From Solidesulfovibrio carbinolicus (GTDB taxonomy: Bacteria; Desulfobacterota; Desulfovibrionia; Desulfovibrionales; Desulfovibrionaceae), in NCBI RefSeq assembly GCF_004135975.1, contig NZ_CP026538.1, positions 3,906,001 to 3,970,000 of the forward strand: a DNA stretch of 64,000 nt, written 5' to 3'. The notes beneath the pieces were generated by a model, which saw nothing but the letters and a program-made list of their open reading frames with translations, was not told the origin of the DNA and did not search any database. Positions 8,417 to 64,000 of the stretch are shown here, in pieces (position 1 is the first letter of the stretch; every line of letters begins with the position of its first letter). A program made the position numbers and the translations under genes.

Positions 8417-9475
8417 ATGACGCCTGCTCGCGACCCCGCCGTCTCCATTGCCCGGGGACTCGGCATCATTTTGGTGGTGCTCGGCCACTGCTTTGATCCC
8501 TTCAGCTGGTATCCCATCTATTCCTACCACATGGCGCTGTTTTTTCTGCTGGCCGGCTATGTGTTCAACCCGCGCCACCGGGAAGACCCCAAGCGTTATG
8601 TCCTGGCTCGGGCCAAACGACTTTTAGCCCCGTATTTCCTCTACAATCTGCTGTTTGCCGGCCTCACCGCCCTGGCCGCCGCCACCCTTGGCCTGTGGAC
8701 CGACCTGGCCCCCTTTTCCCTGCGCGCCCTGGTTTACGAACCCCTGACCACGGGGCATCAGTTTCCGCTTTTTAACGGCGGCTGGTTCCTGGTGACCCTG
8801 TTTTTCGTCCAGCTGGCCTATCTGCCCCTGCCCCGATTTCTTCGCGGTGACGGCCCGGCCCGGGAATTGGCCGCCACGGGCCTGCTGGCCCTGGTTTGCG
8901 TCCTGGTCGGCAAGGGCTTCGACCTCTCGCTCCTGGGAACCCAGCTCGGCAAGGTCGGATTTGGGCTTTTTTTCTATGCGTGCGGCCGTAGGGCCAGGGC
9001 CTGGAATGGCCTGTCCGGACTGGTTTCGGCCCGGGGCGTGACGGCCAGCGTCGTTTCGGCCGTGCTGCTCTCCTGCCTTGGCGCAAAGACCATTTATAAC
9101 CTTTCGACCATGTCCTTTTCGGGCAACCCGTTGCTGGTCTTTTTCACCTCCCTAAGCGGTTCGCTCCTGGTCTTCTGGCTCGCCCGACAACTGGCGGCCA
9201 CCAGCCGGCCGGCCAGCCTCCTCGTGGTGCTTGGCGACAACACCGTGCCCATCATGTGCCTGCATTTGATTTTTTTCTTCCTGCTTAACTGCCTGCTTAT
9301 CCCGCTTACCGGCACGGACCCGGCCATGCTTGACAACACCCTTTTTGGCGTCAGCGCTCCCCGCCTCTATCCGCTTTACGTGGCGACCGGGCTTTTCGGC
9401 CCCATCGCGGCCGTGCGTCTGGCCCGGGCCGCCGTTTCGGCCCTGGACAGCCGCCATAAGACCGCCAGTCGATAG
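8417..9475 (+). CDS. acyltransferase 3 family membrane protein
   Basis: A 352-residue protein with about ten transmembrane helices and the family signature at the N-terminus: SIARGLGIILVVLGH with the essential His, then YSYHMALFFLLAGY and the RLLAPY motif. Members transfer acetyl or other acyl groups from the cytoplasmic side onto lipid-linked or surface glycans. CTGAGGAG lies upstream of the ATG at 8417. No SGNH domain is fused, unlike OatA. Separate SGNH proteins occur elsewhere in the window. The divergent beta-helix neighbour suggests a surface-polysaccharide context, which is inference. Confidence 0.88.
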   Translation: MTPARDPAVSIARGLGIILVVLGHCFDPFSWYPIYSYHMALFFLLAGYVFNPRHREDPKRYVLARAKRLLAPYFLYNLLFAGLTALAAATLGLWTDLAPFSLRALVYEPLTTGHQFPLFNGGWFLVTLFFVQLAYLPLPRFLRGDGPARELAATGLLALVCVLVGKGFDLSLLGTQLGKVGFGLFFYACGRRARAWNGLSGLVSARGVTASVVSAVLLSCLGAKTIYNLSTMSFSGNPLLVFFTSLSGSLLVFWLARQLAATSRPASLLVVLGDNTVPIMCLHLIFFFLLNCLLIPLTGTDPAMLDNTLFGVSAPRLYPLYVATGLFGPIAAVRLARAAVSALDSRHKTASR

Positions 9476-9619
9476 ACCGCCCAAACAACGTGGCCAGGAG
9501 AGGCGTTGTCTGGTTGCCATGGCAACGCCTCCGCGCCTACCATGCCCACGCGGCGCACCGTCGCCGCCAGAAATCCGGCGTCCGGCCCCTCGCGCCCGGC
9601 CGCGCCCAAGGAGTTCGCC

Positions 9620-10609
9620 ATGACCAAGCCCCTGCCCCATGTCGTCGTCACCCGGGCCATTCCCGAGGCCGGGCTGGCCCTGTTGCGCGAGCGCGCCAGC
9701 GTCTGGGTCAACCCCGAGGACCGGCCGCTTGGTCGCGACGAACTGCTGGCCCAGGCCAAGGACGCCGACGGCGTCATCGGGCTTTTGACCGACCGCATCG
9801 ACGCCGGCTTTTTCGACGCCTGCCCGAAGCTTCGCGGCTACGCCAACTACGCCGTGGGCTACGACAACATCGACGTGCCCGAGGCCACCCGCCGAGGCCT
9901 GCCCGTGTCCAACACCCCGGACGTGCTGACCCAGGCCACGGCCGAGCTGGCCTTTGCCCTGATCCTGGCCACGGCCCGCCACATCGTGGCCTCGGACGCG
10001 GAGCTGCGTTCGGGCCAGTGGCCGGGCTGGGGGCCGCTGCAATTTATCGGCACGCAGCTGACCGGCAAGACCATGGGCATTTACGGCCCGGGGCGCATCG
10101 GCCTGGCCGTGGCCCGGCTGTCGCGCGGCTTTGACATGAAGATCGTCACCTGCGGCGGGCGCAAGCCCAACCCGGCGCTGGTGGCCGAATTCGGGGCCGC
10201 CGCCCTGCCCTTCGAGGCGTTTCTGGCCGCCGCCGACGTCATAAGCATCACCGCGCCCCTGACCGACACCACCCGCCACGCCTTCAATGCCGCCGCTTTT
10301 GCCCGCATGAAGCCCACCGCCCTGCTGGTCAACACCGGACGCGGCCCCATCATCGACGAGGCCGCCCTGGTCGTGGCCCTGCGGGAAGGCCGCATCGCCG
10401 GGGCGGGCCTGGACGTCTACGAATTCGAACCGCGCCTGGCCGAAGGGCTGGCCGCGCTGCCAAACGTCGTCATCACGCCCCATATCGGCTCGGCAACCAC
10501 GGAAGCCCGCGAGGGCATGGCCGTGCTGGCCGCGAACAATCTCATCGCCATGCTGGAAGGGACCACGCCGCCCACCTGCCTCAACCCCGAAGTTCTGGCC
10601 CGGTCTTGA
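9620..10609 (+). CDS. D-2-hydroxyacid dehydrogenase, probably glyoxylate/hydroxypyruvate reductase
   Basis: NAD(P)H-dependent reductase of 329 residues. It has the split catalytic domain, a Rossmann fold opening with GIYGPGRIG (about residue 154), and the three catalytic residues of the family: Arg in NTGRGP, Glu in YEFEP and His in TPHIGSAT. The N-terminal SNTPDVLTQATAE matches glyoxylate reductases. A longer frame from 9506 exists, but the ATG at 9620 has AAGGAG and starts right at the domain. The exact substrate (glyoxylate, hydroxypyruvate or a 2-keto acid) cannot be read from sequence. Confidence 0.9.
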   Translation: MTKPLPHVVVTRAIPEAGLALLRERASVWVNPEDRPLGRDELLAQAKDADGVIGLLTDRIDAGFFDACPKLRGYANYAVGYDNIDVPEATRRGLPVSNTPDVLTQATAELAFALILATARHIVASDAELRSGQWPGWGPLQFIGTQLTGKTMGIYGPGRIGLAVARLSRGFDMKIVTCGGRKPNPALVAEFGAAALPFEAFLAAADVISITAPLTDTTRHAFNAAAFARMKPTALLVNTGRGPIIDEAALVVALREGRIAGAGLDVYEFEPRLAEGLAALPNVVITPHIGSATTEAREGMAVLAANNLIAMLEGTTPPTCLNPEVLARS

Positions 10610-10679
10610 CAATTTTCGGCAATCGGGAGCATCCCCCAAGGCTGTCCGGGCCGTTTCGGCCGGACCCCAAGGAGCCGCC

Positions 10680-11132
10680 ATGCGTCTGCGCGAACTGATG
10701 CGAACCAACCTCTCCCGGGCCCGCCACGACACCCCCTTTGGCGAGCTGGTCGCCGCCCATCGCCGCCGCGATTCCCGGCTGGTCTATGTCGAGGACGAGG
10801 CCGGCCGGCTGGTCGGCGTGGTCAGCTGCTACGACCTGCTGCGGGCCGCTTTGCCCTTTTACGTCGATTCGAGCCTGGCCCGGGCCTTGCCCGAGGACAC
10901 CTCGGTGCTTCGTAACAGCTTTGCCGCCGCCTGCCGCGACAAGACCGCCGGCGACGTCATGACCAGCCACGTCGTCACCGTCTCCCCGGACGACACGGTG
11001 TTCGCCGCCGAGGCCTATTTCGCCGAAGGCCGCCACAACGTCCTGCCCGTGGTCGACGCGACGGGCCGGGTGGTGGGCGAGGTCACCCGGCGCACCATTC
11101 TCGTGGTCCTGGCCGGCTCCTGCGGCCTGTAG
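10680..11132 (+). CDS. CBS-domain protein
   Basis: 150 residues made of two CBS motifs in tandem: residues about 5-60 (LMRTN ... LVYVEDEAGRLVGVVS) and 92-145 (DVMTSHVVTVSPDDTVFAAE ... LPVVDATGRVVGEVT). CBS pairs bind adenine nucleotides and usually regulate a partner. Eighteen bases separate it from the ion transporter gene at 11151, so it is likely co-transcribed and may gate or sense for that transporter. CAAGGAG precedes the ATG. Confidence 0.88.
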   Translation: MRLRELMRTNLSRARHDTPFGELVAAHRRRDSRLVYVEDEAGRLVGVVSCYDLLRAALPFYVDSSLARALPEDTSVLRNSFAAACRDKTAGDVMTSHVVTVSPDDTVFAAEAYFAEGRHNVLPVVDATGRVVGEVTRRTILVVLAGSCGL

Positions 11133-11150
11133 CATCCCGGAGGCCCGCCC

Positions 11151-12488
11151 ATGTTCTGGATCGCCACCGCCATTTTCGTCGGCGCCTATGCCGTCATCGT
11201 CTCGGAAAAGATCAACAAGACCAAGGTGGCGCTTTTTGGCGCGGCGCTCACCCTGGCCGCCAAGGTGCTCACCCAGCACGACGCCTTCCACGACGCCGAC
11301 CTCGGCGTGGACTGGAACGTCATCTTCCTGCTCATTTCCATGATGATCATGGTCAACATCATGACCAAGACGGGCGTGTTCCAGTACGTGGCCGTGCGCG
11401 CCGCCAAGATCGCCCGGGGCGAACCCTTCGCCATCATGGCCATCTTCGCCGTGGTCACGGCCGTGGCCTCGGCCCTGCTCGACAACGTCACCACCGTGCT
11501 GCTTTTGGCCCCGGTGACGTTGCTGGTGGCCAAGGAACTGGAAATCGACCCCGTGCCCTTTCTCATCACCGAGGCCCTGGCCTCCAACATCGGCGGCACG
11601 GCCACGCTCATTGGCGATCCGCCCAACATTATGATCGCCTCTAAGGCCGGTCTGGACTTCATGGACTTCATCGTCCACCTCGCCCCGGCCATCGTCGTCA
11701 TCATGTTCGCCTGGATGTTCGTCTGGAAACTCGTCTTCGGCCAACGCCTGCACGTGGGCCCGGCCCAAAAGGCCCGTATCCTGGCCATGGACGAGGGCGC
11801 GCTCATCCGCGACCCGGCGCTGCTCAAAAAATCCGGCCTGATCCTCGGGCTGACCATCCTGGGCTTTACCCTCCACGGCTTTCTCGGTTTCGAGCCGGCC
11901 ACCATCGCCCTGCTCGGGGCCTCGACGTTGTTGCTCGTTTCCGGCGAAGACCCGCAAAAGGTCTTCGAGGACGTGGAATGGCCCACCATTTTCTTCTTCA
12001 TCGGCCTTTTCATCATCATCGGCGGCACGGTCAAAGCCGGGCTCATCGAGGTGTTTTCCCAAAAGGTCATCGCGCTGACCCACCCCACCAAGGACTCCAT
12101 GCTTGTGCTGTCCATGGTCATGGTCTGGTTTTCCGGCATCGCCTCGGCCATCGTGGACAACATTCCTTTCGTGGCCACCATGAATCCGCTTCTGGCCGAG
12201 CTGGCCGAGAAGGTCCTCGGCCCGGAAACGGGCCTCACCGGGCCTGCCCTCTACACCCACCCCACCATGCTGCCGGTCTGGTGGTCCCTGGCCCTGGGGG
12301 CCTGCCTTGGCGGCAACGGCACGGCCATCGGGGCCTCGGCCAACGTCATCGTGGTCGGGCTGTCGGAAAAGGCCGGTCACAAGATCACCTTTGCCCGCTT
12401 CTTCAAATACGGCGCGCCGGTGACCCTGGGGACCATCACCATCTCCATGGGCTACATCTACTTGCGCTACTACGTCCTTGGCTGGTAG
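11151..12488 (+). CDS. ArsB/NhaD-type ion transporter
   Basis: Integral membrane protein of 445 residues with about 11-12 helices, belonging to the ion transporter superfamily. Two inverted halves carry the conserved breaks LDNVTTVLLLAPVT ... NIGGTATLIGDPPNIMI (about 110-165) and VDNIPFVATMNPLL ... GGNGTAIGASANVI (about 335-405). NhaD-type Na+/H+ antiporters, ArsB pumps and citrate-type carriers share this layout. The substrate is unresolved, although the GGTATLIGDPPN box is typical of NhaD/ArsB-like proteins. The upstream gene encodes a CBS protein, a possible regulator. Confidence 0.88.
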   Translation: MFWIATAIFVGAYAVIVSEKINKTKVALFGAALTLAAKVLTQHDAFHDADLGVDWNVIFLLISMMIMVNIMTKTGVFQYVAVRAAKIARGEPFAIMAIFAVVTAVASALLDNVTTVLLLAPVTLLVAKELEIDPVPFLITEALASNIGGTATLIGDPPNIMIASKAGLDFMDFIVHLAPAIVVIMFAWMFVWKLVFGQRLHVGPAQKARILAMDEGALIRDPALLKKSGLILGLTILGFTLHGFLGFEPATIALLGASTLLLVSGEDPQKVFEDVEWPTIFFFIGLFIIIGGTVKAGLIEVFSQKVIALTHPTKDSMLVLSMVMVWFSGIASAIVDNIPFVATMNPLLAELAEKVLGPETGLTGPALYTHPTMLPVWWSLALGACLGGNGTAIGASANVIVVGLSEKAGHKITFARFFKYGAPVTLGTITISMGYIYLRYYVLGW

Positions 12489-54789: not shown

Positions 54790-54888
54790 CGGGAAGAGGG
54801 AAGAAATAATATCTTGTGAATTCCCCTGTTGTTACATAATATCACAAAGCATCGAGTCGTCAATATTGCCATATCGGAGGCAATTTTT

Positions 54889-55986
54889 ATGAACCTGACA
54901 GACCAGGATTTGGCTGTTCAGTTAAAGATTACGCGCCAAGACATCCGCAGGCGCAAAGAGCTTCTGGGCTTTACGGAAGAAGACGCCAAAATTCTGGCCG
55001 AGTTGAAGCCAGATATAGACATCAGCGCATCTTCAATTGTTGACGAATTCTATGACGATCAAGTCACCAAACCGGAGATCGAAAGAACTATTGGAGACGC
55101 TGGCACGCTCGGGCGATTGAAACACCACATGTCAAACTACATTTTAGACATGTTTTCTGGACGTTATGACGACATCTATGTTCTCTCCCGCCTCAGAATA
55201 GGTTTGGTCCATGACCGCATCGGCGTTCCGCCGATGCTTTACATTTCTTCCATTCGCACGCTCTTTCAAATACTACGACAACGATTGACCAGCAAACTGT
55301 CCGCGAGCAAGCAATGCAGCACTTGCCACAAAATTCTTGAAGCGCTTGAAAAAATTATACTTTTCGACCTCACTCTCGTCATAGACACCTACATCCATGC
55401 GCTTGTCAAGCAAGTCTCCAACAGCCAGGCAGAGCTGGAGAACTACGCCAAAAGCCTCGAAGAAGAGGTATCTTCGCGAACAAAAGAACTCATTGAATTT
55501 GCCCAGACTGATGCACTGACGCAACTCAATAACAGAAGAGCGTTCTTTGATGCTTTAAGAAGAGAAATAGCCCGATCAATTCGGCACGAAGAAGAATTCG
55601 TCCTGGCCTATATCGACCTTGATCACTTCAAACAGGCCAATGATACGCTTGGACATCAGGAAGGCGACAGGATTTTGATTTGCATGGCCGAGGCCGTGCG
55701 TGAGTCCTTGCGGGCCGAAGACCTTGGCGCGCGAATTGGCGGCGACGAGTTTGCTGTCATCATCGCCGATGTCGATCTTGCCAAAGCAAAAGAGGTCATT
55801 GAAAGACTGACGAAAAGGTTCGACACAAACAAAGGAAACTCCTCCGTCACGATGAGTGTCGGCCTCGCTCGCTTCAATTTAGAATACCCCCAGCTTCCTG
55901 ACGCGTTGATGAAGGAAGCCGACATAGCCATGTACAACGCAAAAAAACACAAAGGAAACAGCATCGCAGCTTTTGGCCAGTCGTAG
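54889..55986 (+). CDS. globin-coupled diguanylate cyclase
   Basis: 365 residues. The globin-sensor domain (about 15-160) keeps the proximal heme His108 in RIGLVHDRIGVPP. A coiled linker (170-205) precedes a GGDEF domain (205-362) with the intact active site GGDEF (284-288) and a complete RxxD inhibition site (RAED, 275-278). It makes cyclic di-GMP in response to oxygen or another heme ligand. CGGAGG precedes the ATG at 54889. GC content is lower than in the neighbours. A CSTCH motif at about 143-147 inside the linker region looks like a c-type heme site, but the protein is cytoplasmic. Confidence 0.93.
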   Translation: MNLTDQDLAVQLKITRQDIRRRKELLGFTEEDAKILAELKPDIDISASSIVDEFYDDQVTKPEIERTIGDAGTLGRLKHHMSNYILDMFSGRYDDIYVLSRLRIGLVHDRIGVPPMLYISSIRTLFQILRQRLTSKLSASKQCSTCHKILEALEKIILFDLTLVIDTYIHALVKQVSNSQAELENYAKSLEEEVSSRTKELIEFAQTDALTQLNNRRAFFDALRREIARSIRHEEEFVLAYIDLDHFKQANDTLGHQEGDRILICMAEAVRESLRAEDLGARIGGDEFAVIIADVDLAKAKEVIERLTKRFDTNKGNSSVTMSVGLARFNLEYPQLPDALMKEADIAMYNAKKHKGNSIAAFGQS

Positions 55987-57276: not shown

Positions 57277-58305
57277 CTAGCCCCGGCGCGCCGCCCGGCA
57301 GGCGATCAGCTCGGCCACGATGCTGACCGCGATTTCCTCCGGCGTCTCGGCTTCGATTGAAAGGCCAATGGGCGAATGGCAGCGGGCGATGTCGGCGGCG
57401 GTGAAACCCTCGGCACGAAGCCTGGCATACACCGAATCCCGCTTGCCCACGCTGCCGATCATGCCGATGTAGCCGGCCCGCGTGCGCAGGGCCAGGGCCA
57501 GCACGTCCTTGTCCTGGGCGTGGCCGCGCGTGACGATGACAACCGAGGCGTTTTCCTCATATAAACGGCCCGCGAAGCACTCGGCCAAATCCTTATAAGC
57601 CATCGTTTCCCGGGCGTCCGGGAACCGCTCGGGATTGGCGAATTCCGGCCGGTCGTCGAAAACCGTGACGCCAAAGCCCACCATGGCCGCCATTTGGCAG
57701 GTCGGGCGCGACACATGGCCGCCGCCGAAAATATAGAGCGGATCGCGGGCCAGGGCCGGCTCCAGCATCCACGGTACTCCGGCCACCTCGAAACAGATGG
57801 GCGCGGCGATGCCCCGGCCTTGCTTGCGGGCGGCTTCCAGCACCTCGGGCGGTACAGCGTCACCAAGAACGCCGTCCGGCGCGATGAGCGCCCGGCCGCT
57901 GGTCCCGTCGCCGATGCGGGCCACGATGAGGCAGCTGCGTCCGGCGGCCAGATGGCCGGCCAGGGCGGCGAACAGCGCCTTGGCGGCATCGTCGGGGGCG
58001 ATGCGCTCGATGAAAACCCGCATCCGGCCGCCGCAGATGAGATCGGCCCCGGCCGAGGCCTGGCCGGTCATGTCGATGCCGAGCAGCCGCGACGGACCGG
58101 CGGAGAGCGTTTCCTTGGCGGCGGCGATGGCCATGCCCTCGCCCAGGCCGCCGCCCACGGTGCCGGCGATGGAGCCGTCGGCAAAGACCAGCATCTTGGA
58201 GCCGGCCGTGCGCGGGGTGGAGCCTTCGTTGGTGACGATGGTGACGGCGGCCAGGGCCTCGCCCCGGGACAAACGGCCGTTTATGGCGGCAATCAGTTCG
58301 ATCAT
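57277..58305 (-). CDS. XdhC/CoxI-family molybdoenzyme maturation factor
   Basis: 342 residues. The N-terminal XdhC_CoxI domain (about 15-80) has NEGSTPRTAGSKMLV and the GTVGGGLGE turn. CGGRMRVFIE marks the conserved Cys region. A C-terminal Rossmann domain (about 190-330) follows with YIFGGGHVSRP and CHSPIGLSIEAETPEEIAVSIVAEL. Relatives insert sulfurated molybdenum cofactor into xanthine dehydrogenase/aldehyde oxidoreductase enzymes. It overlaps the CoA-ligase gene by 4 bp and is the last gene of the cluster, so its target enzyme is probably an aldehyde oxidoreductase encoded beyond the window. Confidence 0.9.
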   Translation of the reverse strand: MIELIAAINGRLSRGEALAAVTIVTNEGSTPRTAGSKMLVFADGSIAGTVGGGLGEGMAIAAAKETLSAGPSRLLGIDMTGQASAGADLICGGRMRVFIERIAPDDAAKALFAALAGHLAAGRSCLIVARIGDGTSGRALIAPDGVLGDAVPPEVLEAARKQGRGIAAPICFEVAGVPWMLEPALARDPLYIFGGGHVSRPTCQMAAMVGFGVTVFDDRPEFANPERFPDARETMAYKDLAECFAGRLYEENASVVIVTRGHAQDKDVLALALRTRAGYIGMIGSVGKRDSVYARLRAEGFTAADIARCHSPIGLSIEAETPEEIAVSIVAELIACRAARRG

Positions 58306-59360
58306 GCCCTACCCTTTCCCTTGTCTGGGGTGACGACGGCAAAGCCGCCGGTAGTTGTTTCGATGCGTCCCAAAATCGGCCCCAGCCGCCGCAGCGGACT
58401 GCCGCACGGGCACGGCCCGGGCAGCATGGCCGCCGCGTCGCCGGTGCGGTAGCGCAGAAGCGGCACGCCGCGACAGGTCAGCGTGGTGAAGGCCACCTCC
58501 CCCACTTCGCCCTGGGGCAAGGGGACGTCGGAGAGCGGATCAAGCACCTCGAAATAGAGCTGCGCCTCGCGCAGATGGTAGCCGGCCCCGGCCAGACATT
58601 CCATGCCGCCGCCGTAGGCCATTTCCGTGGCGCTGTAATAGTCGAAGACGCGGCAGCCGAAACGCGACGCCGTGCGCTCGCGAAGCTCGGGCGAAAGGAA
58701 ATCCGAGGCGTAGACCACCGAGCGCAGCGTCTCCCGGGCGGCCTGCATGGCGGTGACGTCTTCCAGGGCGGCCCGCAGCTGGGACGGCGCGGCAATGAGA
58801 CTGGCCGGACGATGGGCGCGCAGCGCCTCGGCCAGCCGGGCCGGATTGCCGGTCGGGTCGCCGAACACCGGCAACGCGCCGAGCCGGCGCATGCCCCGGC
58901 CGATGAGGTCGCCCACGCTGTCGGGCTTGTCGGCCGGAAACAGGATCAGCACCGTCTCGCCGGGATTAAGCGTCACGGCCATGACCACCTGGAAGCACTC
59001 CAAGGTTTCGGCAAGGTCGGCGTCGGTGAGGCCCATGCGTTTGGGCGGGCCGGTGGTGCCCGAGGTGGCCACGGTGACCATGCGGGCGACCGCGTCCTGG
59101 GGCACGGCCAGGAAGCGCGGAAACTGGGCGGCCAGATCGGCCGGCGTGGTGGTCGGCAACGTGGCGAAGGCCTCGAAGCTTTCGGGAAACCCGGGCGGCA
59201 GCCGGGCCAGCCGGTCGCGGTAAAAGGGGGCCTTGCGGGCATGGTCCAGGGCGCGGCACAGGGCAATAAGTTGCCAGCCGGCCAGCCGGGCCGGGTCCGG
59301 GGTGCCGCCGTCCTGGCCGATAGAGGCGGCGATCCAGGCGTCAAAAGGGCTTACGCGCAT
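58302..59360 (-). CDS. AMP-dependent CoA ligase (DVU_1553-like)
   Basis: 352 residues with the phenylacetate-CoA ligase layout: an N-terminal helical part (WQLIALCRALDHARKAPFYRDRL), the adenylation loop VTVATSGTTGPPKRMGLTDAD (about 105) and the motif VFDYYSATEMAYGGGMEC, where family members have YG-x-TE. RYRTGD is visible near the C-terminus, but the usual C-terminal lid is short. It should adenylate a carboxylic acid and form a thioester. The substrate is unknown. It overlaps the radical SAM gene by 10 bp and the XdhC gene by 4 bp, so it is translationally coupled. Confidence 0.87.
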   Translation of the reverse strand: MRVSPFDAWIAASIGQDGGTPDPARLAGWQLIALCRALDHARKAPFYRDRLARLPPGFPESFEAFATLPTTTPADLAAQFPRFLAVPQDAVARMVTVATSGTTGPPKRMGLTDADLAETLECFQVVMAVTLNPGETVLILFPADKPDSVGDLIGRGMRRLGALPVFGDPTGNPARLAEALRAHRPASLIAAPSQLRAALEDVTAMQAARETLRSVVYASDFLSPELRERTASRFGCRVFDYYSATEMAYGGGMECLAGAGYHLREAQLYFEVLDPLSDVPLPQGEVGEVAFTTLTCRGVPLLRYRTGDAAAMLPGPCPCGSPLRRLGPILGRIETTTGGFAVVTPDKGKGRA

Positions 59361-60697
59361 GGTTTTTGGCGATACAGCGCCGTCCCGTCGGCGGCGGTCA
59401 GGTTGTAGAGGCAAAAGGGAATGAGCCGGCCGTCCGGCACGGCCACGTGGATGCAGCAGCCGCGCGCCCGTTCCAGGTCCAGGGTCCAGGCGTCCATGAA
59501 GGCCATGGCCGAGACGCTCAGTTTGGGCCGGCTGGCGGCGGCGGCCAGGAAGCGGTCGAAGTCGTCGCGGATGGCGGCCGGCTCGAGCGCGGCCTTGGCC
59601 GGCCCCCACTGGCGGGCGACAAAGGCCATGGACTGGCGCGCCCCGTCCTCGGCGGGAATCGGAGCCGCGCCCGTGTCGCAGCAGCCCCCGCCGCCGGACA
59701 CAGCCAGCCGGCCGTCCGGGGCCACGGCAAACGAGGCGGAAAAGGAGCACAGGGAATGCTCGCAGCACGGGGCATGAAAGTCGGCGGTACGCAGTTCGCC
59801 GCCCGTTTGCGCCTCCAAGGCGGCCAGGAGTTCGGGCAGGGTCAGGCGCGGGGCGCTGGCCCCGTCGCCGGGATAGCGGCCAAAACAGGCGGCCGGCTGG
59901 AAATGGACCCCGCGCACACCCGGGGCCAGCCTTGCCGCCAGCCGCACCAGTTCCCCGACCTCGGCCACGTTGACGCCCGGGACCAAGGTCGCCACCAGCA
60001 CCACGCCAAGGCCGGCGGCGGAACACGCCTCCATGGCCGCGCGCTTCTCCCGGGCAAGCCGCCGGCCGCGAAGGGCCGTATGGACTGCGTTGGACACGCC
60101 GTCGCACTGTAAAAATACCGAATCCAGGCCGGCTGCCGCCAGACGCGGGGCCAGGGCGGCGTCGGCGGCCAGGGCCAGGCCGTTGGTGTTGAGTTGCACA
60201 AAGGGAAACCCGGCGGCCTTGGCGGCGGCCACGATGTCGGGCAGATCAGCGCGCATGGTCGGTTCGCCGCCAGACAGCTGCAGATTGGCCGGTCCGGCCT
60301 GCTGGCGGGCCTGGACCAGCCGGGCCGCGATGTCGGCCAAGCTTGGATCGGGCGCGCTGGCGCTGCCGGCGTCGGCAAAGCAGACCGGACAGCCAAGGTT
60401 GCAGCGGCTGGTCACTTCCAGGACCACGGTGCAGGTGCGCTGATGGTGCTCCGGGCACAGGCCGCAGACGTAGGGACAACCCGGCCCCGGGGCCGCGCCC
60501 TGGGGTTCGGTCCCGGGCTTGGGGATTTTCGGCCGGTCCCAGCCTTGGGGCCCCGGAGGGCCGTGCCAGTAGCGCGTACGAAAGGGGCCGTGTTCCGGGC
60601 AGGTCCGCACCAGCCAGCCGTCGTCGCCGTCCTGTTCGCGATATGCCGGCAACCGGGCCAGACACACTGGACAAACGCTCTCGGTCGCCGTCATCAT
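59351..60697 (-). CDS. trsS: radical SAM protein, TrsS type
   Basis: 448 residues. The N-terminal Cys pairs CPVC (about 9) and CPYVCGLC (about 74) precede the radical SAM motif CNLGCPVC (about 99) and SGGEPTM. The C-terminal half carries HAPCCEHSLC, GGGGCCDTG and RARGCCIHV, giving several auxiliary Fe-S or metal sites. The CPYxCGLCxxH-x-x-T block resembles the MJ0619/tetraether-lipid-synthase group. From memory the family includes selenoproteins. Here a plain Cys codon is used and no in-frame TGA is present. It sits between the CoA ligase and a C-GCAxxG-C-C protein gene. Confidence 0.85.
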   Translation of the reverse strand: MMTATESVCPVCLARLPAYREQDGDDGWLVRTCPEHGPFRTRYWHGPPGPQGWDRPKIPKPGTEPQGAAPGPGCPYVCGLCPEHHQRTCTVVLEVTSRCNLGCPVCFADAGSASAPDPSLADIAARLVQARQQAGPANLQLSGGEPTMRADLPDIVAAAKAAGFPFVQLNTNGLALAADAALAPRLAAAGLDSVFLQCDGVSNAVHTALRGRRLAREKRAAMEACSAAGLGVVLVATLVPGVNVAEVGELVRLAARLAPGVRGVHFQPAACFGRYPGDGASAPRLTLPELLAALEAQTGGELRTADFHAPCCEHSLCSFSASFAVAPDGRLAVSGGGGCCDTGAAPIPAEDGARQSMAFVARQWGPAKAALEPAAIRDDFDRFLAAAASRPKLSVSAMAFMDAWTLDLERARGCCIHVAVPDGRLIPFCLYNLTAADGTALYRQKPCA

Positions 60698-60769
60698 ATC
60701 CCGTATTCCTTCCAGCCAGACGACGCTCTCCCGCCGCCCGCGCCAGCCCCCGTTAAAAGTCTTTGGAAG

Positions 60770-60812
60770 GGGGCCCGGGGAAACCTTTCTCCAGAAAGGT
60801 TTCCCCCGCTCT
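60770..60812 (-). repeat. inverted repeat in the operon gap
   Basis: GGGGAAACCTTTCT pairs with AGAAAGGTTTCCCC, flanked by GGGGGCCC and TTGGAAGG, between the genes ending at 60824 and starting at 60697. The hairpin lies in the only gap above 100 bp in this cluster. It may lower downstream expression, but it lacks a clear T-run. Confidence 0.6.
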
Positions 60813-60823
60813 TCCTCTTCGTC

Positions 60824-61267
60824 CTAATCACGCCCTTCGGACGGGTCGAGGCCGTAGGCCACGAGCAGTTCGAGCATCTTGTTCCAGGCGTCGGCCATCA
60901 GCCCGCCGCAGCGGATGGGGTCGGGCTTGCCGTCGTTTAAGATGGCGGCGCAGGTAGTGGCCCCGTAGTCGTCCTGGGCGCGCTGGCTGAACCAATCGAC
61001 GAAATCGGACACCAGGGCGTCGCCTTGTTCGAAGGGCGTTTCCTCGTCGCGGCCTTTGCCGGTGTAGAGTCCCAGGGCCAGGCAACCGCCGGTCATGATG
61101 CCGCAAGCGCCGCCCGTGCCGCCCATGCCGTGGCACAGCCCCATTGCCGCGCGGACGAGTTCCGGGTTTTCCCGGCCCTGGGCGGTCAGGGCCAGAAGAA
61201 TGAGAATCTGGCTGCAGCAGTAGCCCTTGTGGGCCAGGGGCAGGATTTCGAGCAGCGTGGGATTCAT
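60824..61267 (-). CDS. C-GCAxxG-C-C family protein (DVU_1555-like)
   Basis: 147 residues. It has the family cysteine set: GYCCSQ near residue 18, GLCHGMGGTGGACGIMTGGCLALG (about 44-67, the GCAxxG-x-C core), TTCAAI and RCGG near 105-120. These cysteines are thought to hold a metal or Fe-S site, with possible redox function. AAGGAGG precedes the ATG at 61267. It lies 2 bp after the methyltransferase gene. Confidence 0.9.
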   Translation of the reverse strand: MNPTLLEILPLAHKGYCCSQILILLALTAQGRENPELVRAAMGLCHGMGGTGGACGIMTGGCLALGLYTGKGRDEETPFEQGDALVSDFVDWFSQRAQDDYGATTCAAILNDGKPDPIRCGGLMADAWNKMLELLVAYGLDPSEGRD

Positions 61268-61269
61268 GG

Positions 61270-62040
61270 TCACGCCTCCTTGCGGCAAATCCACAGGCCG
61301 TAGCCCAGACGCGGTTTTTGGCCGTCCCCGGCGCAGCCCGGCTCCCGGCCTGTCAGCACGGCCATGACCTCCCGGGCGGAACCGAGTTCGAGAACAAGAC
61401 GGCAGGAAAGATCAATGAGGTGGCGGGTGTGGTCCTCGAAGACCACGGCAGGCAGCCCATGCCGGGCAAAGCGCGATTCGGCCACTTCCCGGGACAGGGC
61501 TCCGGCGGCGCAGCCCGCGCCCGCGCCCCCGCTGCCGGGCGACCCGGCCCGCAGATAGAGATCGGAGACGACGAGGTAGCCGCCCGGGACGAGGACCCGG
61601 GCGATCTCCTCCAGGGCGGCTTCGGGCCGGGCCAGGGCCGAGAGCACGCATTCGCCAAAAACGCCGTCAAAGGCGGCCGAGGCAAAGGGCAGCGCTCCGG
61701 CCTCGGCCCGCAGCGCCCGGCCCGGGACGCGGCCGGCCGCCTCAGCGGTCAGGACGGCGGAAATGTCGCAGCCAACGGCCCGGAAGCCGGCGGCAGAGAG
61801 GCGCGATAGCGTGGCCCCGGCTCCGCAGCCGCAGTCCAGGAGCCTTGCGCCGGCGGCAAAGGGGAGCAAGTCCAGGGCGCGGTCGGTCAGCGCCAGCCCG
61901 CCCGGACGGATGGCTCCGCCGGTGGCCCGGCGCACGTCGGCGCGTTCGTAGGGCTTTTCGCCGGGCCGCCCACCCCCGAAGCCGGGGCCGGCCGGCGGCG
62001 CAAAGGGCGCGGGGCCGGTGAGCGGCGCGGCAAAGGGCAC
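61270..62040 (-). CDS. trsM: SAM-dependent methyltransferase, TrsM type
   Basis: 256 residues from the GTG at 62040, chosen because GGAGG lies 7-8 bases upstream and the codon overlaps the previous stop (TAGTG). A longer frame would run into that gene. The N-terminal 35 residues are Pro/Gly-rich. The class I methyltransferase domain has LLDCGCGAGATLSRL (motif I, about 68), VGCDIS and GVFGECVLSALARPEAALEEIARVLVPGGYLVVSDLYLR. The acceptor is unknown. Products of neighbouring radical SAM or CoA-ligase steps are possible. Confidence 0.85.
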   Translation of the reverse strand: MPFAAPLTGPAPFAPPAGPGFGGGRPGEKPYERADVRRATGGAIRPGGLALTDRALDLLPFAAGARLLDCGCGAGATLSRLSAAGFRAVGCDISAVLTAEAAGRVPGRALRAEAGALPFASAAFDGVFGECVLSALARPEAALEEIARVLVPGGYLVVSDLYLRAGSPGSGGAGAGCAAGALSREVAESRFARHGLPAVVFEDHTRHLIDLSCRLVLELGSAREVMAVLTGREPGCAGDGQKPRLGYGLWICRKEA

Positions 62041-62255
62041 TACTTGTCCTCCAGGAGCTGTTCCACCTCGAACATCTTGCCCACGGCCAGATGCTCGGGC
62101 ACCAGCGACAGGCCGCACTTTTGGCAGGTCATGAGCGTGATGGTGAACCCGCCCTGGAGATAGGTGACGCCGACCGGCGCGGGGGCGAGTTTTTCGCCGC
62201 AGGCGGCGCAGCTCCAGTCGCCGGACTCGGGCAGATAGGTGGGGGTGTCGTTCAT
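62040..62255 (-). CDS. small zinc-ribbon redox protein (DVU_1557-like)
   Basis: 71 residues with two CxxC pairs, CAAC (about 16) and CQKC (about 44). They are separated by a beta hairpin (GVTYLQGGFTITLM), like a zinc ribbon or rubredoxin-type site, and a C-terminal helix (FEVEQLLEDK) follows. It may hand electrons or metal between neighbours. Its stop overlaps the methyltransferase start. It begins 5 bp after the oxidoreductase gene. Confidence 0.85.
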   Translation of the reverse strand: MNDTPTYLPESGDWSCAACGEKLAPAPVGVTYLQGGFTITLMTCQKCGLSLVPEHLAVGKMFEVEQLLEDK

Positions 62256-62260
62256 GGCGC

Positions 62261-64000
62261 TTACGCCTCCTGCCGGTCCACGCCGGTGACGTTCATGCGG
62301 TGGCTGTAGCCGGCGTGGATGTGGGCCACGCCTTCCAGCATTTCGTAGAGCGCCCAGTAGGTGACCCGCGCCCCGGCCAGCCCGGCCAGATGGCGGCCGG
62401 TTGCCGTGTCGGTGAACTTGCGGCCCGTGGCCTCGGCGTAGGCCACGACCCGGGCCAGATCCGTGTCCAGCACGTGGCGGGCTTCCAGCACGGCGCGCAC
62501 GGCCTCGGGGATGACCAGCCGCACGGCCGGCGGCGTCTCGGGCGGGGCCGGCTCCTTCCAGACGGTTTCCAGCACGGACCGCTTGAGCCGGCCCCGGGCT
62601 TCGTGGCGGTAGGAAAAGCCGGGATCGGGCCGGGCCGGATCGGCGGCTTGGCTTGGGAAAAGCAGATCCAGCAGATGGAAGGTGCGCTTGCCGGCCCCGG
62701 CCAGCCGGTCGCGGCACATGGAGCAGGTGGCCACGAAGTCGCGCGGGCTTTCGGCCACGCGCCGGGCCAGGGACGCGGCGGCCAATTCCGGGTGGGCGTT
62801 GGCCTGCAAGCCGCCAAAGCCGCAGCAGGAGGCCAGCTTGCCCGAGGCGGGCAATTCTTCGACGGTCACCCCAAGCTTGGCCAGGATCTCGCGCACGGCG
62901 GCCAGCCCGGCGGCGTCGTGGCGGCCGGTGCAGGCGTCGTGGACGGCCACCGGCGCGTCGGGAAGCTGGCCGGCGGGCGCGGGCAGCCCGGTCTCGTCCA
63001 GAAGCACGCGCCACAGGGAGACCACGGGAATGTCGGGGGCCAGGCGGGCAAAGGTGGCCTGGCAAGAGGCGCAAGCGGCGATGACGCGCGGTTTGCCCAA
63101 GGCTTCCCAGTCAGCCTGGAAGGCGGCCATGGCCGCCTCGGCCAGATCCTGCCGGCCGGCCCAGAAGGCCGGCGCGCCGCAGCAGGCCAGGCCCAGCCCC
63201 ACGCCGCCAGGCAAGCCGGCGCGCAGATGGGCGTAGACGGCCGGCACGGAGGCGGCCGGATCGCCGCCGAGCTGGCAGCCCGGGAAAAAGAGGTGGGAGC
63301 AGGTCGTCTCGCCCGGCGCGGCCCGCATCAGGCGGAAGGCGTCGGACAGGGAAAAGGCCATGTCCTCCAGGGCGAACTCATGGGCCCACAGCGGCATCTT
63401 GCCGCGCGCCACCATGTCGCGCCGGGCCGTGAGGATGAGATCGGGCATGGAAAAGCCCGACGGGCACAGCTCCTCGCACTGGCCGCACAGGGTGCAGGAG
63501 TTGATCATCTGGTTGTACGACCGCGCGCCCTGGACGATGGAAAGATTATTATAGATCTGGCGGGCGTAGACGCGGGGATAGCCCTTGTAGCGAGCCAGGT
63601 ACGTGCAGGCCTTGACGCACTCCAGGCACTGGCAGTCCAGGCAGCGGGCGGCCTCGGCCTTGGCCTCGTCCGGGGTGAAGCCGGCGGCGGCATCGGCCGC
63701 GGCCACGGCCGGCAAGGGAATGACGCCGGTGGTGTTGGTGAAAAGGCGCGTGGGGCAGGCCCCTTCGCGCTCGCGGGAGGCGGTGACGGACACGCCGGCC
63801 AGATGCCGGTCCAGGGACACGGCGGCCCGGCGGCCGTCGCCGGCCAGGGAAATAACGGAGAGCGGCTCTCCGGGAACGGCGAAACCGCCGCCAAAAACGC
63901 CCTCGCAACCGTCGAGGGCCAGGGCCAGAGTCAGGGCGTCGGCGTCAGCCTTGGCGACCCCCAGGGCCGGGGCCGAGACGGCCTCGACGTAGACGCCGTC
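62261..64000 (-). CDS. flavin/NAD(P) oxidoreductase fused to dicluster Fe-S/CCG domains, 5' end beyond window
   Basis: The frame is open from the window edge, so at least 579 residues are present. Residues 1-60 end a GltD-type pyridine-nucleotide/FAD domain (ISLAGDGRRAAVSLDRHL). Cys-rich segments CLDCQCLECVKAC and CTLCGQCEELCPSGF follow for two Fe-S clusters. Then come two CCG-type (heterodisulfide-reductase D/GlpC-like) domains (FFPGCQLGGDPAASV, CCGAP, CASCQATF; CTGRHD, CCGFGG, CSMCRDR). It probably moves electrons between NAD(P)H and a cysteine-ligated cofactor or partner. It is the most upstream gene of the cluster visible here. Confidence 0.9.
   Translation of the reverse strand, partial: DGVYVEAVSAPALGVAKADADALTLALALDGCEGVFGGGFAVPGEPLSVISLAGDGRRAAVSLDRHLAGVSVTASREREGACPTRLFTNTTGVIPLPAVAAADAAAGFTPDEAKAEAARCLDCQCLECVKACTYLARYKGYPRVYARQIYNNLSIVQGARSYNQMINSCTLCGQCEELCPSGFSMPDLILTARRDMVARGKMPLWAHEFALEDMAFSLSDAFRLMRAAPGETTCSHLFFPGCQLGGDPAASVPAVYAHLRAGLPGGVGLGLACCGAPAFWAGRQDLAEAAMAAFQADWEALGKPRVIAACASCQATFARLAPDIPVVSLWRVLLDETGLPAPAGQLPDAPVAVHDACTGRHDAAGLAAVREILAKLGVTVEELPASGKLASCCGFGGLQANAHPELAAASLARRVAESPRDFVATCSMCRDRLAGAGKRTFHLLDLLFPSQAADPARPDPGFSYRHEARGRLKRSVLETVWKEPAPPETPPAVRLVIPEAVRAVLEARHVLDTDLARVVAYAEATGRKFTDTATGRHLAGLAGARVTYWALYEMLEGVAHIHAGYSHRMNVTGVDRQEA

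Follow-up and report, generated by a model that had tools for sequence, protein, structure and literature searches.

A TrsS radical SAM operon accompanies the molybdenum aldehyde oxidoreductase of anaerobic bacteria

For decades the molybdenum aldehyde oxidoreductase (AOR) of Desulfovibrio has served as a model molybdoenzyme, and to our knowledge its cellular role is not established. Tes (also GDGT-MAS), the tetraether synthase that joins alkyl chains of archaeal membrane lipids, acts by radical coupling. Relatives of both are encoded together in Solidesulfovibrio carbinolicus. The window analysed here, a stretch of 64,000 nucleotides (positions 3,906,001 to 3,970,000 of contig NZ_CP026538.1), carries at 57277-64000 seven minus-strand genes around TrsS, a radical S-adenosylmethionine (SAM) enzyme that is a paralogue of Tes, and the AOR gene lies just past the window's end. 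The protein families themselves are already named in NCBIfam; new here are the counts of their pairing, the split and exchanged arrangements of the operon, the losses of a ligase domain and a sister radical SAM clade beside an acetylene-hydratase-like enzyme. We tentatively read the operon as a dedicated anaerobic metabolic module and not merely a set of AOR helpers, a reading to which we give not quite an even chance.

DVU1559 is printed as AOR in the accessible text of PMC10920352 and PMC11784015, the former reporting its detection in a proteome table under the heading 'Ethanol metabolism'. The available passages of a randomly barcoded transposon sequencing paper (PMC10102598) cover the tungsten AOR DVU1179, and none of them covers DVU1559. 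TrsS is named as this enzyme in one table entry within the available portion of PMC13188914. A first-pass annotation of the window knew of no assigned pathway for these genes, and our search of the open-licence literature likewise found no paper describing one; nor did the accessible text of PMC10838667 give a link to the monofluoroacetate work on Synergistota.

The trs operon and its pairing with AOR

Presence was called by curated cut-offs in two samples, one from the window's phylum, Desulfobacterota (148 genomes), and one from that of Sporomusa (199 genomes). In the first sample TrsS is present in 20 genomes and AOR in 15: 15 have both, none AOR only, five TrsS only and 128 neither. Of the five TrsS-only genomes (G055, G098, G059, G092 and G113), the first, G055, carries an AOR broken into two pieces that lie on separate contigs. 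The second sample holds 16 genomes with TrsS and 16 with AOR (15 both, one AOR only, one TrsS only, 182 neither), and in its TrsS-only genome, G225, an AOR fragment adjoins TrsS at a contig end. G312 is the single clear exception to the pairing across the two samples. Fisher p values for co-occurrence, with kinship ignored, are ~1e-16 and ~2e-20, respectively. The co-occurrence analysis that the first-pass annotation had proposed thus bears out its suggested tie to an AOR, 15/15 and 15/16 of the AOR genomes carrying TrsS, and a chance assembly of unrelated genes is ruled out by co-occurrence together with conserved gene order. The usual adjacency of AOR and the TrsS operon in anaerobes suggests that AOR serves an undescribed pathway; near-obligate pairing in samples of two phyla would make this one specific pathway, accessible to gene deletion.

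The operon is real. All seven genes score above the cut-off of their own NCBIfam family, the last one having been scored whole. On the minus strand, in order of coordinate, they encode an XdhC-family AOR maturation factor (57277..58305; NF045664, 388.8 bits against a cut-off of 350; Pfam XdhC_C and XdhC_CoxI), a DVU_1553-type AMP-binding ligase (58302..59360; NF045666, 376.3 against 300; start at ATG ~59360 or GTG 59354), TrsS (59351..60697; NF045646, 599.2 against 490), a DVU_1555-type C-GCAxxG-C-C redox protein (60824..61294; NF045669, 169.6 against 103; internal ATG ~61267), a DVU_1556-type class I SAM methyltransferase (61270..61950; NF045667, 212.4 against 155; start uncertain, with the open reading frame (ORF) open from 62118), the DVU_1557 zinc-ribbon protein (62040..62255; NF045645, DUF7479, 94.8 against 60) and the C-terminal part of a dicluster/CCG oxidoreductase (62261..64000, whole gene 62261-64594; NF045663, 962.4 against 530). 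The D. vulgaris locus tags are those of the NCBIfam family names. Each assignment in the packed seven-gene operon of the first-pass annotation therefore passes a curated cut-off, and extending the sequence past 64000, as that annotation had advised, places AOR on the same strand at 64664-67396 (NF045668, 1611.5 against 1100), with a MoeA-like gene (MoCF_biosynth; 67494-68558, minus strand) upstream of it. Outside the operon but on the same contig, genes for a DVU_1551-type nucleoside triphosphate (NTP) transferase with an HD domain and for a histidine phosphatase are paired near 0.2 Mb; in other loci these two are often near XdhC.

AOR and TrsS occur together by strict scores in 64 of 101 surveyed loci, on one strand in 63 of the 64 and with a median gap of 3.85 kb; many of the remaining 37 are cut by contig ends. 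Matches above 25 bits accompany the pair in these 64 loci as follows: dicluster protein in 64, methyltransferase in 60, ligase in 57, C-GCAxxG protein in 56, zinc ribbon in 51, XdhC in 33 and MoeA-like in 29, small genes being undercounted by the simple ORF caller used. The named loci are the best 80 of at least 561 confirmed relatives, and by record title they include Desulfobacterota groups, Chloroflexi, Firmicutes, Acidobacteriota, Proteobacteria, Synergistaceae and Sulfurospirillum.

Elsewhere in the window, at 54829-55986, a Protoglobin domain is fused to a GGDEF domain, i.e. a globin-coupled diguanylate cyclase by Pfam.

TrsS, the ligase and the dicluster protein

The radical SAM motif CX3CX2C of TrsS (C99, C103 and C106) is invariant in 41 sequences, and the protein has an N-terminal C-x2-C...C-x2-H site and further invariant cysteines. 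By homology, TrsS should cleave SAM and hold extra Fe-S clusters. Its closest solved relative is Tes (PDB 7TOL, 268 bits), which its AlphaFold model (pLDDT 88.1) also matches best, over the whole chain (TMq 0.75, E 8.9e-39; the next best, MoaA, has a TMq of ~0.4). The accessible text of PMC8941075 and PMC11868695 proposes a role for Tes homologues of bacteria in the synthesis of branched glycerol dialkyl glycerol tetraethers (brGDGT), and TrsS might likewise be a bacterial synthase of tetraether or membrane-spanning lipids. We regard this as very improbable: against the Tes model NF045702 TrsS scores 310.6 bits, under the cut-off of 450, and the genes that recur beside it are those for redox proteins, AOR and the molybdenum cofactor (Moco), although no systematic search for lipid genes was made. 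TrsS is also a caution for lipid geochemistry, as the homologues counted as possible brGDGT makers in what is available of these two papers may include TrsS-like proteins encoded in operons of a different kind. A selenocysteine form of TrsS was considered for L096 (L and G numbers denote loci and genomes), where no TrsS ORF had been called, and was rejected, as reading TGA as U gave the ordinary Cys form. In two loci (L126:9651-9965 and L136:1821-2123) a protein of ~100 residues is encoded between a cysteine desulfurase and TrsS; the L126 copy, the one tested, has no Pfam or NCBIfam match.

The window's ligase has motifs A3, A5 and A7 and ends soon after A7. The tail after A7 is at most 65 residues long in 15 loci, among them the window, which was classed manually on its ORF, and at least 123 in 55, two loci cut by a contig end being excluded. 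On the TrsS tree the C-terminal domain is missing in 15/69 loci (the window and 14 others) and present in 54, a split that needs four changes. Such repeated loss suggests that the ligase may act without thioester formation: of the CoA ligase proposed in the first-pass annotation, the AMP-binding family and its motifs stand and the thioester is weakened.

That annotation's flavin/dicluster/CCG oxidoreductase fares similarly. The family score is well above its cut-off, and the flavin fingerprint GxGxx[GAS] is degenerate in the window's copy, where it reads GGDVSA; it is intact in 66/73 aligned sequences, the window being among the seven others. The last ~90 residues of the protein (62261-62545), here called c92, have no Pfam match and form a separate gene elsewhere, e.g. 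L133:8218-8490. A near-invariant HRM stands near the end of c92, and in L111, L132 and L165 the c92 domain is fused to the zinc ribbon. We did not adopt a function for c92 from its fold, as only a small fold is shared (model pLDDT 91.6; no Foldseek PDB match at E<=0.001); a second look gave BrnT as the best structure match (Z 8.2, root-mean-square deviation 2.6, 74 aligned), followed by many RelE/YoeB-type rows.

Other redox enzymes beside TrsS and its relatives

Several loci carry tungsten enzyme genes of the Bam type. L111 and L132 have a BamB-type gene upstream of the core and codirectional with it; a MoeA gene accompanies it in both, and in L111 a BamC-like ferredoxin was called as well. 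L165 has its BamB-type gene on the strand opposite to TrsS, at a distance of ~7 kb, and a dimethyl sulfoxide (DMSO)-reductase-family gene adjoins its core. The Bam-type set of L133/L264 diverges from the core. BamB (4Z3W) was matched by the L111 gene with 1003 bits, and the genes of L132, L133 and L165 were matched to the L111 gene. Within the tree of AOR-type TrsS, a single branch (support 0.81) unites L111, L132 and L165, and L133 is placed elsewhere; AOR over cut-off was not found in the genomes of the first three, all of them metagenome-assembled genomes (MAGs). In one Desulforhabdus genome, the source of L133, the set is split. Its AOR place reads MoeA-like-AOR-dicluster-zinc ribbon-XdhC-NTP transferase, and neither TrsS nor the methyltransferase, the C-GCAxxG protein or the ligase was found within the next 16 kb; a second place reads c92-zinc ribbon-methyltransferase-CGA-TrsS-ligase and adjoins the Bam-type genes.

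A separate TrsS branch (L077, L078, L083 and L087; support 0.999), to which L259 was assigned by score, is free of AOR and has a short dicluster protein and a stand-alone c92; L260-L262, also free of AOR, lie outside the tree. The neighbours of these cores are catabolic company, i.e. acyl-CoA, transporter or corrinoid genes: 2-hydroxyacyl-CoA-dehydratase-type genes and a BcrAD/BadFG-type ATPase in L078, with a similar set in L259; a MaoC-like gene in L077; and TRAP transporter, corrinoid-activation and flavoprotein genes in L083, L087 and L261, the gene sizes of L262 nearly equalling those of L261. In L077, L078 and L259 the make-up of the core is kept though no molybdenum or tungsten (Mo/W) enzyme was found there. 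This branch with its neighbours suggests a metabolic module.

A sister radical SAM clade, under the TrsS cut-off, has a partner of another kind. In L293, L287 and L298 the radical SAM gene has a DMSO-reductase-family enzyme as its neighbour; for the L293 copy, acetylene hydratase is the closest solved structure (377.7 bits). Three more members (G722, G614 and G570) have the same enzyme directly downstream, so that the total is 6/6 loci, three of them found after the pattern had been noticed. The search covered 398 + 395 genomes of both phyla, overlapping the earlier samples, and matches in G353 and G601 were excluded from the count as TrsS proper. We know of no description of this operon type. 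Members of the clade (L293, L287, L298, L312, L313 and L314) are often accompanied by CofC-like, GNAT, DUF169 and MBL-fold genes. Nine other Tes-like loci (L294-L297 and L299-L303) gave no match to the Mo/W reference set, and L303 has two MoeA-like genes nearby. In L296 (G293, 9008-11817) and L295, divergent Tes-like radical SAM genes cluster, by eye, with acyl carrier protein-, ketoreductase- and dehydratase-like genes, which may belong to lipid or polyketide biosynthesis.

These associations could mean that Tes-like radical SAM enzymes mature or tailor a Mo/W enzyme, acting on a metal ligand, the pterin or a protein residue, with a different partner family for each clade. The neighbours do span three unrelated superfamilies, i.e. 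AOR (xanthine oxidase family), the BamB-type tungsten enzyme of four loci and the acetylene-hydratase-like enzyme of all six sister-clade loci; XdhC, MoeA-like and MocA-like genes occur in the loci, and cysteine desulfurase genes in 10/101 of them. We consider tailoring rather unlikely nonetheless. The cofactor of D. gigas AOR is described as ordinary molybdopterin cytosine dinucleotide (MCD) at 1.28 A in the available text of PMC10223205, the full trs operon L082 holds an AOR with 1925 bits over 907 residues to another crystallised AOR, 1DGJ, and related AORs (~740-813 bits) are present in genomes without TrsS over cut-off. Second AOR copies without a neighbouring dicluster gene, in G064 (other contig) and G153 (other strand, ~6.6 kb from the main set), are a weak point on the same side, yet TrsS is present in both genomes. 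In a broader form, Tes-fold radical SAM enzymes would be a general partner family of anaerobe Mo/W-pterin oxidoreductases, installing or supplying something needed, with clades for xanthine-oxidase-type AOR, for BamB-type enzymes (a sub-branch) and for acetylene-hydratase-like enzymes (the sister clade). We hold this generalisation unlikely, and know of no description of such a step.

Alternatively, TrsS, the methyltransferase, the ligase and the NTP transferase might make a small diffusible redox carrier that docks via c92 and the zinc ribbon to several redox enzymes. In the Desulforhabdus genome c92 and a zinc ribbon stand at both places and one TrsS was found; c92 and zinc ribbon are fused in the three loci named above, and a nucleotidyltransferase-like gene goes with TrsS (DVU_1551 type) as well as with the sister clade (TIGR04282 type). 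However, there is no known carrier of this kind. The NTP transferase, its own family apart, is closest to MocA (127.6 bits), so that AOR's own cofactor accounts for it, and the type B loci, which are free of AOR (L077, L078, L083, L087, L089 and L259-L262), showed none. The carrier appears quite improbable.

A proposed metabolic module and its nearest known systems

We lean towards a metabolic module whose redox enzymes are exchangeable, rather than towards a modified pterin. The first-pass annotation had offered a new modified cofactor; in the form of a modified pterin in AOR this is disfavoured by the ordinary MCD of the D. gigas enzyme, the presence of the trs operon in D. gigas itself being assumed. 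The near match to 1DGJ inside L082, the AORs without TrsS and the cores kept where no Mo/W enzyme was found are further reasons for the preference. That annotation's other proposal, a route from carboxylic acids to aldehydes via the operon, is possible. The reaction for which this AOR family is known runs the other way, from aldehyde to acid.

Gene content and order, co-occurrence, homology, the varied neighbours and the ligase domain losses are observations; the chemical steps, substrate and product of the metabolic module are ones that we infer. The ligase-like enzyme would adenylate a carboxylic acid; TrsS, with a Tes-type set of Fe-S clusters, would abstract hydrogen from an unactivated C-H and form a C-C (or C-S) bond; and the methyltransferase would add a methyl group. 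Electrons would be moved by the CCG/dicluster protein, the C-GCAxxG-C-C protein and the zinc ribbon, and AOR would oxidise an aldehyde intermediate, passing electrons to the dicluster protein. The XdhC, MoeA-like, NTP transferase-HD and phosphatase genes would travel along because AOR needs sulfurated MCD. In other lineages, the different redox enzyme beside the same core would substitute for AOR.

Several observations weigh against such a module. The BamB-type and acetylene-hydratase-like associations point to a tie with Mo/W enzymes in general, and a DMSO-reductase-family gene is present in the fetched stretches of the AOR-free loci L087 and L261. The accessory genes of the AOR form are mostly Moco genes, which would also be in keeping with maturation, and no recurring substrate-specific transporter or regulator was seen in AOR-form loci, though no systematic search was made. 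A simple acyl-CoA route is made less likely by the loss of the ligase C-terminal domain. In G312 AOR is present in four copies (L280-L283), three of them with a dicluster protein, and no TrsS is over cut-off; several AOR-free genomes are MAGs that may be incomplete.

Among known systems, the crystallised Desulfovibrio AORs, known as Mop, are the nearest solved relatives of the operon's AOR (1DGJ, 1418.9 bits; 1SIJ/1VLB, 1392.8 bits; near full length); in the accessible text of PMC10223205 and PMC4287179 Mop is described as a stand-alone enzyme and its neighbour genes go unmentioned. The ligase resembles PaaK-type CoA ligases in its AMP-binding domain with A3, A5 and A7 and departs from them where the C-terminal domain is missing, as in the window. 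BamB of class II benzoyl-CoA reductase, which has counterparts by the trs core in four loci (upstream in L111 and L132, nearby in L133 and L165), differs from AOR in enzyme superfamily and reaction and is absent from the operon of the window's genome. TrsS itself differs from Tes in its sub-cut-off score, in its redox and Moco neighbours and in the invariant Cys89, which aligns with an Ile in Tes, but shares with 7TOL the N-terminal zinc-ribbon-like motif, CX3CX2C, GCPxxCGLC, CCIH...PFC and the whole-chain fold.

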